DNA of 64,000 bases from Pseudanabaena sp. Chao 1811. GTDB lineage: Bacteria > Cyanobacteriota > Cyanobacteriia > Pseudanabaenales > Pseudanabaenaceae. The stretch is from NCBI RefSeq assembly GCF_027942295.1, contig NZ_CP101416.1, positions 3,024,501-3,088,500 on the forward strand. Reading direction: 5' to 3'. The notes under the pieces were generated by a model that worked only from the letters and a program-made list of their open reading frames with translations, ran no database searches and was not told the origin of the DNA. Position 1 is the first letter of the stretch. Each line of letters starts with the position of its first letter. Positions 30,710-62,173 of the stretch are shown one piece after another. A program made the position numbers and the translations under genes.

Positions 30710-33700
30710 ATGTCTGGCAGTCAGAATACAGGCTCAACCTTTGGTTTGAGCAGTGGGGGTGATGCTTCAATTTTTGGAACAAATCAGCTTCCAGATGTCT
30801 TAGGTTTAGTTAGGGAAAGGCTTCAGCAAGCGGCAAGTAACTCCGACCTGTTCGCGCAGGTTTTTGGAGATAAAGCAAATACGGCTGAACTGCAAGCAGT
30901 GCGATCGCAGTGGTCTGTAGGCGATTTTAGCCAATTACCTGCCATCCAAATTCTTTCAGCAGCCAACACTAATGGCGCTTTTGGACTATATGCTCATGAT
31001 ACTCAAACAGTTTATCTATCTGACTCGCTATTTCAAGCAAATGCTGCATCAACTAATTCCTTATTCGGAGCAGCAGGCGTTTTAATTGAAGAAACTTTTC
31101 ATTGGCTAGATGATCGTGTAGGAACTGACACCAAAGGAGATGAGGGAGAACTGGCTCGAAATTTGGTGTTTGGGGCTAATCTTAACAGCACTGAATTAGC
31201 GCGTATTAGAGCGGAAAATGACAGTGGGATTATTGTGCTGAATGGTCAATCTATCTCTGTTGAGATGAATGATACGTTGGCAACTGCTGAAAATTTAGGT
31301 AGTCTTAATACAGCTTGTTATTATAAAAGTGGCTGGGTAGCTAATTATGTTCCCAACGACTATTATCGTTTTCAAATTAGTAATACCACTCAACTTAACT
31401 TGAATTTATCTAATTTAAGTTCTGATGTTGATCTGTATCTCTTAAATGCTAATGGTTCTATTATTACTTCTTCTATTAGATCTGGTACATCTAATGAGAA
31501 TATTTCATATCAATTGAGTGCTGGCACTTACTATATTCAAGTTCGTCAATTCAGTGGCAGTAGCAATTATAACTTGAGTATAGATTCGACAGTCACACCT
31601 CCTGACTATGCTGGGAACAGTACAAGTTCTGCTCGTTACATTGGTACTTTAGGCACAAGCAACGCTAATTATGGTGATTGGGTAGGTAGTGTTGATACTA
31701 ATGACTACTATCGTTTCGACCTTAATGGCACTCGCAACTTGCGTTTGAGTTTAACAGGCTTAACTGCTGATGCTGATGTTCAGATATTGAATAGTGCTGG
31801 TGCTGTAATTGGTAGTTCTGGGGCTAGCGGAACAAACTCAGAAGCGATTAATCTGGATAACTTGGCAGCAGGAACCTATTATGCAAGGGTTTATCGTTTC
31901 AGTGGCGATACCAATTACACATTGGGTTTAAGAGGAGAGATTCCTGCACCTCCTGACTATGCTGGGAACAGTACAAGTTCTGCTCGTTACATTGGTACTT
32001 TAGGCACAAGCAACGCTAATTATGGTGATTGGGTAGGTAGTGTTGATACTAATGACTACTATCGTTTCGACCTTAATGGCACTCGCAACTTGCGTTTGAG
32101 TTTAACAGGCTTAACTGCTGATGCTGATGTTCAGATATTGAATAGTGCTGGTGCTGTAATTGGTAGTTCTGGGGCTAGCGGAACAAACTCAGAAGCGATT
32201 AATCTGGATAACTTGGCAGCAGGAACCTATTATGCAAGGGTTTATCGTTTTAGTGGCGATACCAATTACACATTGGGTTTAAGAGGAGAGATTCCTGCAC
32301 CTCCTGACTATGCTGGGAACAGTACAAGTTCTGCTCGTTACATTGGTACTTTAGGCACAAGCAACGCTAATTATGGTGATTGGGTAGGTAGTGTTGATAC
32401 TAATGACTACTATCGTTTCGACCTTAATGGCACTCGCAACTTGCGTTTGAGTTTAACAGGCTTAACTGCTGATGCTGATGTTCAGATATTGAATAGTGCT
32501 GGTGCTGTAATTGGTAGTTCTGGGGCTAGCGGAACAAACTCAGAAGCGATTAATCTGGATAACTTGGCAGCAGGAACCTATTATGCAAGGGTTTATCGTT
32601 TTAGTGGCGATACCAATTACACATTGGGTTTAAGAGGAGAGATTCCTGCACCTCCTGACTATGCTGGGAACAGTACAAGTTCTGCTCGTTACATTGGTAC
32701 TTTAGGCACAAGCAACGCTAATTATGGTGATTGGGTAGGTAGTGTTGATACTAATGACTACTATCGTTTCGACCTTAATGGCACTCGCAACTTGCGTTTG
32801 AGTTTAACAGGCTTAACTGCTGATGCTGATGTTCAGATATTGAATAGTGCTGGTGCTGTAATTGGTAGTTCTGGGGCTAGCGGAACAAACTCAGAAGCGA
32901 TTAATCTGGATAACTTGGCAGCAGGAACCTATTATGCAAGGGTTTATCGTTTCAGTGGCGATACCAATTACACATTGGGTTTAAGAGGAGAGATTCCTGC
33001 ACCTCCTGACTATGCTGGAAATTCCATAGGTGCGGCTCGTAATATTGGTACTTTAGGCACAACCAACTCTAATTTTAGTGATTGGGTAGGTAGTGCTGAT
33101 ACTAATGACTACTATCGTTTCGACCTTAATAGCACTCGCAATTTGCGCTTAAGTCTAACAGGCTTGACTGCTGATGCTGATGTTGAAGTACTTAATAGTT
33201 CTGGCACAGTTGTCGGTTATTCTCGCTTAGGTGGGACAAGTTCAGAAACAGCTAATATTAATAATTTAGGAGCAGGAACTTACTACGCGCGAGTTTCTGC
33301 TTTCAGTGGATTGAATACTAATTACAATCTCAGCCTGAGAGGTGAGATTCCTGATCGCGTTCAGACGAGCTTAGGATGGACTAATGGTGGAGTAGAAAGA
33401 CATCTTACTTTTCAGCGTATTAACAGTCCAGGATTCATTGAAAATAAACCAACATGGTTAGTTATTCATGGATGGAATGGTGAAGCAGGAAACTTCAATG
33501 ACTTAGCATCTGCTATTGAAGAATATGATGGAATTCGTGGAGGTGGTAACGAGCAAGTTCTAACTGTTGATTGGAGTGCAGCAAGAACAGGTGGAACATC
33601 TCTAAATGCTGCCGCAGGATGGATCGATACCGTAGGGGAATCTATCAAGAATATGATCCAAGCTTGGGGAATTTCAGCATCTAATATTAACATTGTTGGA

Positions 33701-58800: not shown

Positions 58801-58931
58801 GACAAAGTTGGTATTACAAAAGTCCTGATCAATTAGTGTAATTGATAGTGCTTTGTATCAACGGGTGGAGAAGTTATCAGCCGCATCTGAGAAAACCTTG
58901 GTATGCGCTATTCATCTTGCAAAAGTTAGTT

Positions 58932-58964
58932 TTAGAGCAAGTAGTCAGGGAGTACTTGCTCTAA
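58932..58964. terminator. Terminator after the 59375 gene
   Basis: TTAGAGCAAGTA faces TACTTGCTCTAA with an 9-nt loop, 13 bp past the stop codon of the gene on the minus strand. Confidence 0.65.
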
Positions 58965-58976
58965 GGTTTTGACCTT

Positions 58977-59375
58977 TTACTTTTTGTCTGAGGATGGGCG
59001 ATCGCGGAGATTGCGAATTACGCGAATCAAAAATGTAAGTGTAAAAATTGTTGATAGGCTTGGATCATGGGCAAAGTTAGGAGGGATGATTGGGTAGGCA
59101 TGATTAGCTGGGGCGATCTCTTGAGTTGTGACTTGTTGTTGCTCTGAGGTAGACAAATTAGAGGAGGTTTCCGACCACTCAAACTCATTCACTTGTTTCT
59201 GTTGAGTTTCTGTCTTTTGATTATGGAGATCTGTGCTTCTGTGAAGTTTGTCAACAAGCTTCCTTACCTTATTTGCCAATCTCACAAATTTCCTCAGCCT
59301 CACAATAGTGTTTGTAGCAAGAATGACTTGAGATTGGACTCGTTTTTGATTTTTAACTTGCTTTGAGTCAGACAT
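58977..59375 (-). CDS. Hypothetical protein, basic coiled N-terminus
   Basis: A 132-residue protein with no recognised domain. The N-terminal half is highly basic (KQVKNQKRVQSQVILATNTI, LRKFVRLANKVRKLVDKL). A Gln/Ser/Thr-rich middle follows (QQKQVNEFEWSETSS), and near the C-terminus there is a hydrophobic stretch (LSTIFTLTFLIRVI) ending in RNLRDRPSSDKK. It could associate peripherally or by one helix with the membrane. It is divergent from the NACHT gene with about 290 bp between them. Whether it is a true partner of that gene cannot be told from one genome. Confidence 0.55.
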   Translation of the reverse strand: MSDSKQVKNQKRVQSQVILATNTIVRLRKFVRLANKVRKLVDKLHRSTDLHNQKTETQQKQVNEFEWSETSSNLSTSEQQQVTTQEIAPANHAYPIIPPNFAHDPSLSTIFTLTFLIRVIRNLRDRPSSDKK

Positions 59376-59487
59376 AATTTTTTGCTCCGAAATAAACTAT
59401 GCCAACGCTATTAGATGCTTGCTTGAATGACTTTGCGTGACTTGAGTAACTTGCGTGGGTTTGTGGCAAAAGTAAACTTAAAAATGT

Positions 59488-59570
59488 AGAGATTGGAGAT
59501 CTCCGACTTTTTCTATCAACTTGCAGATTCTTTTAGGTAGCACAGAAAAAGTCGGAGATCTGGGACTTTA
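59488..59570. repeat. Family D palindrome, copy 2, upstream of the NACHT gene
   Basis: GGAGATCTCCGACTTTTTCT faces AGAAAAAGTCGGAGATCTGG around about 34 bp. The match extends about 18 bp per arm. A worn copy lies at 1281-1352. It sits 100 bp before the NACHT gene start and could be an operator, a mobile repeat or a terminator. Confidence 0.6.
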
Positions 59571-59669
59571 GAGGTTACCTGTGCTTGCCTAATCTTGTTT
59601 TTCGCAACTAAATTTTTGTGTGACTTTAGAAAAATGCCAAAATAGTTTTTAGATGTTTGAGGATTAGCA

Positions 59670-61868
59670 ATGTCTAGATCGCTACGAGCTTCTGAGGCAG
59701 GTATCAAGCAGATTAAATCGGCGATGAAGCAAGGTGGTTTTACACAAAAGGCTCTCGCTGAGGCTTTGGGGATTTCGAGATCTGTTATTACAGTTTTATT
59801 TAGAGGCGAGGCGATCAACAAAGAAAATTTTGATCGGCTTTGTGATTTTCTTTACCTTGATTGGCAAGAAATACGGAGTGAAGAAGCTGACAATGACAAG
59901 CGTGGTGACGATCTTGATCGCCTAGTCCAAGAGGTGAAGCAAAAAATCGCGGCGGATGTGACCGATCGCTGTGGAACGATGCGGGTGTTGGATATGACGC
60001 AACCTGTCGATCTGGATCGGATTTATACCGATGTGAATATCATTAAGGATGTGACTGGGCGGCGGCGGATTGGGTATGACGAGGTGATGGAGGTATGTAC
60101 CCGTGAGCATTTTGATCGCTTTTTAGTGGGGACGATTAAAGAACGGGTAAAGGGATTTGAGGCGGTTGAAGAATTTCAAAAGTTGGTAGTTTTGGGTAAA
60201 CCAGGGGCAGGGAAAACCACGTTTATGAAATATTTGGCGATGTCTTGCCTTGCGGGGAGGTTTCATGGGGAACTTGTACCGATCTTTGTGACGCTGAAGG
60301 CTTATGCGGAGGAGAGGGGACAGCCATCGCTAGAGAATTATATTTTGACGGAATTTGCCAAGCGTAAGGTATCACAGGATGTCGCGAAACAGTTACTAGA
60401 TAACGGTAAAGCCTTGATCCTGTTGGATGGATTGGATGAGGTGAAGAAAGAGGATGATCGGCGCGTTAAGCAGGATATCGATCAATTTTCGCGGGATTGG
60501 CTAAAAAATCGCTTTGCGATTACCTGTCGGATTGCGGCGCGAGAATATCAGTTTGAGAGGTTTACGGAAGTTGAGGTTGCAGATTTTGATGATGGACAGA
60601 TTGAAACATTTGTGAATAATTGGTTTCGGGAGAGAGATGAGTCAAAGGCGGAACGGATGTTAGAGAAGTTGAAGGGGAATGAACCTGTTAAGGAATTGGC
60701 TAAAAGTCCTTTGTTACTGACGCTGTTGGGTTTGGTGTTTGGTGAGCGTAACGACTTCCCGCTGAAGCGATCGGAACTGTATAAGGAAGGTCTGGAAGTA
60801 TTGATGAAAAAGTGGGATGCGAAGCGGAATATCGAACGGGAGATAATTTATAAACATCTGTCGCCACAAAACAAGGAGGATATGCTGGGACAGATTGCCT
60901 TTAATACCTTTGTGAATGGCGAATATTTCTTTCGGCAAGAGGATTTGCAACGCCAGATTAAGGACTATATCTGCAATCTCCCTGAAGCTTCCGCCGATCC
61001 TGATGCGTTGCGGATTGATAGTGAGGTGGTGCTAAAGGCGATCGAGCATCATCATGGGTTGTTAGTGGAGAGGGCAAGAAATATTTATTCTTTTTCCCAT
61101 TTGACTTTTCAGGAATATTTTGCAGCAAAGGCTATTGAGCGTGGTCAGCAATTGGAAATATTGGTGCAGAATATTCTTAATCCAAGATGGAAAGAGGTGT
61201 TTTATTTGACTGCGGAAATGTTGTGGCGATCAGATAACTTTTTGCAGTTAATGAAGGATCGCATTGATGGAATGTTAGCAGATGATGAGAAGTTACAAGC
61301 ATTTCTAGAATGGACAGATCAAAAGACAAATTCTGTGGAATTTAGCTATAAAGCTGTGGCAGTTAGAGCTTTTTATGCATACGTTGAAGCCCGCGACCTC
61401 GCGCGCGCGCGCGACCTCGCCCAAGATCTCGATCTCGGAAGAGGTCTCGTCTTCGGACGCGACCTCTTCCTCGTCTACAAGGTTGATCTCGACCGAGACC
61501 TCGACCTCATCCTCGACCGCGCCCTCATCCTCGACTTCGACCACGCCAGCCACCTCACTTCAGCTCTGAATGATGATGTATTGCGACAAGCCCTGCTAGC
61601 ACTTAAGTCTAAGATTCCTAACAACCGAGAAAATGTCTATGCTTGGTGGAAAAATTATGGAGAGGAATGGAAAAATGAATTGCGCCAGGTATGTATTGAT
61701 CGCCGCAATATTGGTCACGACTGGCAATTTACTAATGAGCAAGTAGAACTTCTCAATCAATATTACGAAGCCAATCGCCTCCTTGTCGAGTGCATGAACC
61801 GTAGCTACGTCAGCAAACAAGTCCGAGAAGAAATCGAATCAACGATGCTGTTGCCAAGTAAAAAGTAG
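59670..61868 (+). CDS. XRE-NACHT protein (bacterial NLR-like STAND ATPase)
   Basis: A 732-residue protein. Residues 10-75 are an XRE-type helix-turn-helix (QGGFTQKALAEALGISRSVI, then TVLFRGEAINKENFDRL). The NACHT ATPase spans about 165-490, with Walker A GKPGAGKTT at 176-184, Walker B ALILLDGLDEV at 248-258, the CRIAAR sensor region, PLLLTLL, and the conserved FSHLTFQEYFAAK at the end of the winged-helix part. Residues 571-629 are an Asp/Leu/Arg-rich repeat (for example RDLARARDLAQDLDLGRGL), followed by a helical tail (LNDDVLRQALLALKSK, WKNYGEEWKNEL). GAGG lies 8 nt before the ATG. NACHT proteins with similar architecture include antiphage NLRs; a defence role is inference here. Confidence 0.9.
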   Translation: MSRSLRASEAGIKQIKSAMKQGGFTQKALAEALGISRSVITVLFRGEAINKENFDRLCDFLYLDWQEIRSEEADNDKRGDDLDRLVQEVKQKIAADVTDRCGTMRVLDMTQPVDLDRIYTDVNIIKDVTGRRRIGYDEVMEVCTREHFDRFLVGTIKERVKGFEAVEEFQKLVVLGKPGAGKTTFMKYLAMSCLAGRFHGELVPIFVTLKAYAEERGQPSLENYILTEFAKRKVSQDVAKQLLDNGKALILLDGLDEVKKEDDRRVKQDIDQFSRDWLKNRFAITCRIAAREYQFERFTEVEVADFDDGQIETFVNNWFRERDESKAERMLEKLKGNEPVKELAKSPLLLTLLGLVFGERNDFPLKRSELYKEGLEVLMKKWDAKRNIEREIIYKHLSPQNKEDMLGQIAFNTFVNGEYFFRQEDLQRQIKDYICNLPEASADPDALRIDSEVVLKAIEHHHGLLVERARNIYSFSHLTFQEYFAAKAIERGQQLEILVQNILNPRWKEVFYLTAEMLWRSDNFLQLMKDRIDGMLADDEKLQAFLEWTDQKTNSVEFSYKAVAVRAFYAYVEARDLARARDLAQDLDLGRGLVFGRDLFLVYKVDLDRDLDLILDRALILDFDHASHLTSALNDDVLRQALLALKSKIPNNRENVYAWWKNYGEEWKNELRQVCIDRRNIGHDWQFTNEQVELLNQYYEANRLLVECMNRSYVSKQVREEIESTMLLPSKK
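61388..61560 (+). repeat. GACCTC-type hexamer tract inside the NACHT gene
   Basis: Many imperfect repeats of GACCTC, GATCTC, CTCGAC and GCGCGC, in phase with the frame and coding for R/D-L and L-D dipeptides. The tract is GC-rich and almost every codon ends in C, unlike the rest of the gene. The (CG)n run near 61400-61412 is a further simple repeat. Confidence 0.85.
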
Positions 61869-61948
61869 AAAGACAAAAGGAAAAAAATAGGCGATCGCGC
61901 TAAAATAATTGCATCGGCAACATGAAATCTTGCAATGAAGACGATTAT

Positions 61949-62173
61949 ATGCCATTAAAAGAACTCTTAAACGAAGCTAAAAATTTAGACCTTCAAGAGC
62001 AAATTCAACTAGCCACACAACTATTGCAATGGGTAGAAATAAAAATCAATCAAAAGCCTCAAGACCCTTCATCCAAACGCTTACGGCAAGCAGGACTAGG
62101 CTTAGGAACTTGTATATTTACGACTGACTTTGACGATCCATTACCCGACGAATTCTGGCTCGGAGAAACATGA
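61949..62173 (+). CDS. VapB-like antitoxin (DUF2281 type) of a broken toxin-antitoxin pair
   Basis: A 74-residue protein starting MPLKELLNEAKNLDLQEQIQ, with the LATQLLQWVE helix and an acidic C-terminus (LGTCIFTTDFDDPLPDEFW) of the DUF2281 antitoxin type. An earlier ATG at 61922 would add nine residues; neither start has a strong ribosome binding site. The stop overlaps the start of the following toxin remnant by ATGA, the normal coupling of VapBC pairs. The antitoxin looks intact although its toxin is not. Confidence 0.75.
   Translation: MPLKELLNEAKNLDLQEQIQLATQLLQWVEIKINQKPQDPSSKRLRQAGLGLGTCIFTTDFDDPLPDEFWLGET

Follow-up and report, generated by a model that had tools for sequence, protein, structure and literature searches.

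A gene of Pseudanabaena sp. Chao 1811 encodes an HTH-NACHT-NCH2 protein, a switch-like relative of animal immune receptors, that carries, ahead of NCH2, an array of RNC-YNC codon pairs. Among orthologues this dipeptide stretch is hypervariable on a core that has hardly changed, and this suggests a recognition surface that evolves quickly. On balance, we lean toward reading the protein as an XssQ-like STAND switch whose sensor diversifies by slippage and recombination, with the array as the piece that determines its specificity. The first-pass annotation of this DNA had reported an expanding GACCTC hexamer tract in the sensor end of an NLR-like gene; that observation is real, and it is larger than first described. 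The window analysed here is a stretch of 64,000 nucleotides of the host genome (4.73 Mb, one contig), and the features on which the argument depends are listed below.

59670..61868, plus strand: HTH-NACHT-array-NCH2 gene, 732 aa (Pfam HTH_3 1.5e-08, NACHT 5.2e-15, NCH2 1.8e-32, each above its gathering score; the model matches NLRC4, NOD2, and NLRP3)
59712..59852, plus strand: predicted XRE/HTH_3 DNA-binding domain, residues 15-61, HTH type A of the three types in the genus (Pfam; orthologues carry the other types)
60183..60632, plus strand: NACHT NTPase domain, residues 172-321, with the P-loop at 176-184 and the sequence LILLDGLDE (Pfam; alignment)
61389..61556, plus strand: RNC-YNC codon-pair array, the hypervariable tract, residues 574-629 (codon usage; similar codon-usage borders in loci L022, L030, L027, and L028)
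61581..61856, plus strand: NCH2, NACHT C-terminal helical domain 2, residues 638-729 (Pfam)
58977..59375, minus strand: divergent companion gene, 132 aa, with a hydrophobic segment near the C-terminus that looks membrane-like (relatives adjoin NACHT genes of the group)
59432..59443, plus strand: operator-like TTTGCGTGACTT on the companion side (motif comparison)
59615..59626, plus strand: operator-like TTTGTGTGACTT, 55 bp ahead of the NACHT gene start (motif comparison over type-A loci)
61922..62173, plus strand: small ORF 54 bp downstream, antitoxin-like by our reading only (relatives near the same gene)

The HTH, NACHT, and NCH2 domains were all detected by Pfam on the single 732-aa chain, which is the domain composition of an XssQ-type HTH-STAND protein. 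The NACHT domain scored 56.1 bits against a cut-off of 26.7, placing the protein with the NLR-related NACHT STAND NTPases, and in a 53-sequence alignment the P-loop columns were invariant or nearly so with the exception of A180. Leucine-rich repeats were absent from the best 25 of 29 Pfam matches, so that the protein does not qualify as an NLR in the strict sense. Matches to PADLOC profiles were partial (best PDC-S60, 4e-10, residues 169-493), as were those to NCBIfam, which covered the NACHT region or the HTH (EruA: 42 bits, cut-off 1000), and a search of solved structures by sequence returned two matches at E <= 0.1, the best of which (0.0057) covered the HTH. Relatives of the gene were found neither among viral contigs (75 pattern stretches, none confirmed) nor among phages, and carriage by viruses or phages was therefore rejected.

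A full-length structural model built on a 53-row alignment had a mean pLDDT of 80. Its best match was NLRC4 (Z 24.2, rmsd 7.0, 445 residues aligned), followed by NLRP7, NLRP3, and NOD2, which bears out the original description of the core as NLR-like. Around the tract the model has helices at residues 562-578, 599-617, and 621-632; pLDDT is below 50 at 577-597 and 72-74 at 601-630, and a homologue with a 122-aa array was predicted to be mostly helical at a pLDDT of about 35-50. Because the predicted fold is only a low-confidence helix, we infer a recognition surface rather than read it from the model. The tract had been said to lie where NLRs carry ligand-recognition repeats. It does follow directly on the helical domain, but it is not the C-terminal end of the protein, as the conserved NCH2 domain still comes after it.

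Residues 571-629 have the sequence YVEARDLARARDLAQDLDLGRGLVFGRDLFLVYKVDLDRDLDLILDRALILDFDHASHL. The frame and borders first assigned to this repeat are correct, as is the claim that it is built from C-ending codons, which make up 44 of its 59 codons against 76 of 673 in the remaining gene (binomial P 1.5e-29). Asp is encoded by nine GAC and three GAT codons inside the tract and by seven GAC and 41 GAT codons outside, and all 14 Leu codons in the tract are CTC, with four CTC and 27 TTG codons elsewhere in the gene; the GC content is 0.64 versus 0.44. Among the window's open frames of at least 100 codons, counted stop to stop, this is the top 59-codon stretch for C-endings (44; runner-up 36). 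Self-similarity at lags of 6, 12, and 18 bp was above that of codon shuffles, being reached by 2, 1, and 0 of 2000 shuffles, respectively, and TRF detected arrays with periods of 6, 18, and 24 inside 61488-61547. The 6-bp repetition thus holds up, but the tract contains only five exact copies of GACCTC (the plus strand of the window has 13), RNCYNC fits only 14 of its 32 in-frame hexamers, and GMCCKC fits 8 of the 32. We conclude that the array in this strain is degenerate and partly decayed and that an RNC-YNC codon-pair array is a better description than a GACCTC hexamer tract. Elsewhere in the window, positions 31596-33184 hold a 351-bp tandem repeat of 4.5 copies with 98% matches.

Tracts were cut from 87 loci (24 of 30 plus 65 of 80, minus two that lack the left anchor) and included 78 distinct sequences; six of the 30 loci and 15 of the 80 were left out, the anchors having caught no region in them. 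Long C-ending tracts, defined as at least 55% C-ending codons across at least 40 residues (neighbouring flanks, 0.03-0.32), account for 34 of the 78 and occur cyanobacteria-wide in the same slot. Short C-rich tracts were present too (L096, L108, L110, and L111), and the remaining tracts run from flank-like values up to about 0.5. In the 34 long tracts, codons starting with a purine alternate with codons starting with a pyrimidine at 2195 of 2982 steps, where composition predicts at most half. The purine-first codons encode mostly D, A, N, I, V, S, T, G, and E and the pyrimidine-first codons mostly L, R, F, S, Y, H, Q, and P. Alternation is 0.97-1.0 in L022, L036, L046, L065, L073, and L124, but L090, L095, L100, and L128 alternate about as often as expected or less. 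Hexamers of the form GMCCKC make up the purest arrays (51 of 54 in L046, 24 of 29 in L022, and 21 of 25 in L036).

A search with an 18-base GACCTC probe, which detects DL-rich arrays only, gave matches with up to two mismatches in 23 of 58 genomes. Twenty stretches around matches were examined, some single matches lying outside them, and five frames in these stretches had at least three in-phase matches: four are NACHT genes and one encodes an FG-GAP-like repeat protein. One of the four NACHT frames, an 813-codon frame from base 1 of L178, has no NCH2 match, a weak FGE-sulfatase match, and a long LVRDLDRDRDL array.

The comparison of orthologues within Pseudanabaena covered 16 loci, with 97 of the 120 possible pairs in the reported identity bins. 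At a core identity of 0.85-0.90 the median tract identity is 23% (56 pairs, taken over the longer length), and at a core identity of at least 0.90 tract identity is 18% (8 pairs); tract length ranges from 65 to 163 aa. Identical tracts in distant strains had been named in the first-pass annotation as the observation that would speak against a fast-evolving region. The tracts of orthologues differ instead, in favor of that proposal. Expansion of the tract, which had also been claimed, is invisible in a single genome and is seen only through this comparison. In contrast to the orthologues, a paralogous group of seven loci, represented in the same genome by L002, has tract identities of 91% (6 pairs) and 92% (5 pairs) in the same core bins and tract lengths of 78-82 aa.

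L085 and L118 have alike cores (dN 0.05) and tracts that are far apart (dN 0.78), and L201 and L096 are 95% identical in the N-terminal flank with tracts of 171 versus 30 aa. G021 has a syntenic locus, at which four neighbouring proteins (by our reading putatively nuclease-like, cyclase-like, a P450, and aminopeptidase-P-like) are 96-99% identical and their order is kept. DNA identity is about 0.90-1.0 over these neighbours, 0.83-0.94 over the NACHT core, and 0.55-0.68 over the companion, the intergenic region, and the HTH. Between the same anchors the tracts measure 71 and 162 aa, and the arrays fail to align, the 46% identity being counted over the aligned part alone. This profile indicates that the ends of the gene and the tract changed while the core stayed. 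Hypervariability is not family-wide, since tract and core are equally conserved in some relatives (L063/L066/L080 and L064/L069). For aged tracts outside the L002 group, dN/dS is 0.15-0.19 (L063/L066/L080), 0.33 (L064/L069), and 0.83 (L079/L098); the tracts of L116 and L126 give 1.73, from 13 changes in total. Between L203 and L204 both rates are raised in the tract (dN 0.085 and dS 0.205 versus 0.014 and 0.063 in the core), a pattern that suggests mutation or recombination no less than selection. Stops or frame breaks were found in the orthologues L024, L034, and L035 (G007, G013, and G020), that is, in three of 18 genus loci.

It had been foreseen that a 6-bp unit would let dipeptides turn over without breaking the frame, and this is what the arrays display, with units of 6, 12, and 18 bp and with orthologues that changed in length and sequence. 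L022 contains GACCTC runs and L030 contains 18-bp and 12-bp units, all of which look like in-frame tandem duplications. As the units are multiples of three, the gene does not have the makeup of a phase-variable contingency locus, and programmed on/off phase variation was rejected. At L135 (G009) the tract and the C-terminus are unlike those of other loci, and an orphan C-terminal module 81% identical to that of the window lies about 0.9 kb downstream (L135 9379-9669). This looks like a C-terminal replacement, the single such case in the 111 loci that gave a C-terminal match. In a strain-level comparison of plasmids, three records from Tolypothrix/Fremyella agree at all of 7,035 bases; their tract is aged, and their identity is therefore uninformative on array slippage.

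A diversity-generating retroelement (DGR) was also considered and rejected. The RVT_1 profile had no match anywhere in the genome (the controls for this search gave matches in 3 of 14), and no second copy of the tract that could serve as template was found there, the only hit besides the tract itself being a 28-bp match (E 0.06) that overlaps the tract on the opposite strand. Together these two absences argue that the system is not a DGR of the published kind, as described in the parts of PMC10907252 drawn on here.

From the repeat patterns and orthologue differences, slippage and recombination are probably the diversifying mechanism. Replication slippage and unequal recombination between 6-bp RNC-YNC units would add, remove, and reorder dipeptides with the frame intact, and the whole C-terminal part would occasionally be swapped. 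New arrays would be retained by selection for new specificities, directed at invader proteins or at a changing partner; with a stable partner the array would age, its third codon positions drifting from C and purifying selection setting in. Recognition would then be the function of the array. One characterised homologue was found, and it regulates polysaccharide genes and not immunity, which counts against the sensor reading.

The tract could instead be a tolerated spacer, a helical linker whose length and sequence hardly matter and in which slippage of a GC-rich hexamer leaves unselected variants. Low complexity and low pLDDT fit this proposal, and a low-complexity A/D/L/R helix of low-confidence fold could be such a spacer. 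The same is true of the slippage-like units in L022 and L030, of long open frames whose tracts range between 16 aa (in the 730-codon frame of L096) and 157 aa (in L027), and of the broken gene copies in the genus, which are compatible with relaxed constraint too. However, the tract of the L002 group is nearly constant in length and has a dN/dS of 0.02-0.06 (six pairs; dS > 1, so near saturation), which indicates that tract sequence matters in that group. Moreover, 280 of 384 single-base differences between neighbouring 12-bp units fall on codon position two, with 56 on position one and 48 on position three, and 39 of the 384 are synonymous versus 25% under uniform mutation. These differences are non-independent, with 237 coming from six arrays (L022, L036, L046, L073, L100, and L124), so the second-position excess owes most to a few arrays, and the third-position deficit is absent in 5 of the 16 arrays that have at least five differences. 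The alternation of small and bulky residues also recurs across genera, if not in all arrays. We regard the spacer as an unlikely explanation, though one with some substance.

Still more doubtful is the possibility that the length and charge of the array set the ease with which the protein opens or oligomerises, so that slippage would act as a rheostat rather than alter specificity. A 2.5-fold range in length among close orthologues of one genus and the location of the tract between the helical domain and NCH2 fit such threshold tuning, but composition varies as much as length, and tracts of near-equal length differ, as in L129 and L137 (162 and 163 aa, 37% identical). Least probable, and in our view quite improbable, is a neutral or selfish process at the DNA level (selection on DNA or RNA, or biased gene conversion, on a GC-rich hexamer that the protein tolerates): in C-ending arrays the third codon position varies less than the second (1.1-1.2 versus 1.7 bits), for which purifying selection on the protein alone is insufficient, but a selfish hexamer would be expected in many other genes, and in the 20 stretches examined around probe matches four of the five frames with at least three in-phase matches were NACHT genes.

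The region upstream of the gene bears on what the switch may control. Relatives of the divergent companion number 17 copies in 16 of 58 genomes, and 15 of the 17 lie beside a NACHT gene of this group, the other two being near contig starts. The companion is divergently upstream at 15 of 18 Pseudanabaena loci, with a length of 60-132 aa depending on the starts chosen; it was not found at G002 (full flank), G001 (about 590 bp of flank), or G014 (less than 200 bp). Outside the genus none was detected in the loci examined or in the 58 genomes, save the G032 copy near a contig start. Neither the companion nor the small downstream ORF has a Pfam match. L136 and L132 carry relatives of the latter, 93-94% identical, at about 60 bp and about 1.5 kb downstream of the gene, respectively.

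Three HTH types are accompanied by three sets of upstream repeats over 16 loci. All ten type-A loci, in which the HTH is at least 54% identical to that of the window where aligned, have TTTGCGTGACTT with at most one mismatch at positions −52 to −55, versus none of the six loci with other HTHs (L129, L137, L141, L133, L139, and L140), and each type-A locus has an extra copy with at most two mismatches farther upstream. Loci with the second HTH type lack TTTGCGTGACTT (0 of 3) and have CATGTTAG repeats spaced by 11 bp (3 of 3); those with the third type also lack it (0 of 3) and share, by eye, a GGGTTAAGCATTTGC inverted repeat. L145 (no suitable open frame) and L136 (begins near a contig end) were left out of this scoring. 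Genome-wide, the TTTGCGTGACTT motif occurs at 50 places with at most one mismatch, versus 22 for a reversed control. The co-variation of repeats with HTH type is indirect support for regulation of both the NACHT gene and the companion by the HTH, which probably binds these operator-like repeats; the companion would be the output of the switch. An inverted repeat, GGAGATCTCCGACTTTTTC ... GAAAAAGTCGGAGATCT, lies between the divergent genes at about 59493-59577 and is alike, by eye, in L134, L135, L142, and L143. The XssQ consensus AAGTTXXAC was rejected as the intergenic site, none being present at 58801-60000.

In the switch that we favor, the HTH would bind tandem sites between its own gene and that of the small membrane-like protein, the NACHT domain would be the motor, and the dipeptide array together with NCH2 would form the C-terminal sensor. 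Upon ligand binding, the NACHT domain would open and oligomerise and expression of the companion would change. A bolder form of this idea, which we offer tentatively and think rather unlikely, is DGR-independent hypervariability in which the GMCCKC array, specifying Asp or Ala and then Leu or Arg in each hexamer, may be an evolvable, near-binary recognition code of an NLR-like switch, with slippage and recombination rewriting it quickly enough for strains to differ.

To our knowledge, hypervariable immune-type sensors in bacteria have been described mainly through DGRs, and we recognised no description of such codon-pair arrays among the open-licence papers listed in our literature searches. 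An NLR-like family with a 6-bp sensor unit and a conserved paralogue as control would offer a simple genetic system for the evolution of NLR specificity. Two questions become testable with it, namely whether the array carries specificity and at what rate it changes.

Fungal NLRs are variable NLR-like receptors that carry repeats in the sensor; their repeats are of the ANK, TPR, or WD40 type, whereas the window protein is bacterial and has a unit of two residues. DGR-diversified NACHT sensors have a hypervariable C-terminal region and occur in multicellular bacteria (PMC10907252). As far as they are described in the parts of that paper used, the window protein has in common with them the NACHT domain, the hypervariable C-terminal region, and a multicellular-bacteria host. 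Unlike those sensors, its gene comes without RVT_1 or a template copy and varies in length besides sequence. A lectin-type domain, a feature of the DGR sensors, was not among the best 25 of 29 Pfam matches of the window protein. The bNACHT defence proteins include clades with SNaCT or NCH1 domains, clade 6 having a nuclease and clade 14 no discernible effector according to the sections of PMC12169576 consulted. They share with the window protein a central NACHT domain, a C-terminal sensing part, and the tripartite STAND plan, and as described there they are set apart by features such as the clade-6 nuclease, in the place of which the window protein has an HTH.

A homologue on the Synechocystis plasmid pSYSM is 33% identical over residues 3-729 and is probably XssQ, judging by the plasmid, the neighbouring response-regulator genes, and the published description. 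XssQ of Synechocystis sp. PCC 6803 is an HTH-STAND protein that binds DNA in EMSA and, as mutants indicate, activates the synechan genes, in the account given in the portions of PMC8205485 drawn on. In Synechocystis sp. B12, the region matching the XssQ-like gene (L208 2475-4826) is annotated as three separate ORFs. The tract of the XssQ-like homologue is not a young array, unlike that of the window, and its gene neighbours are response-regulator and sugar-transfer genes, whereas the window gene has the small companion instead. Both proteins have NACHT and NCH2 domains behind an HTH; in the homologue the first two were identified by Pfam and the HTH by alignment only (no Pfam HTH match at 0.001).
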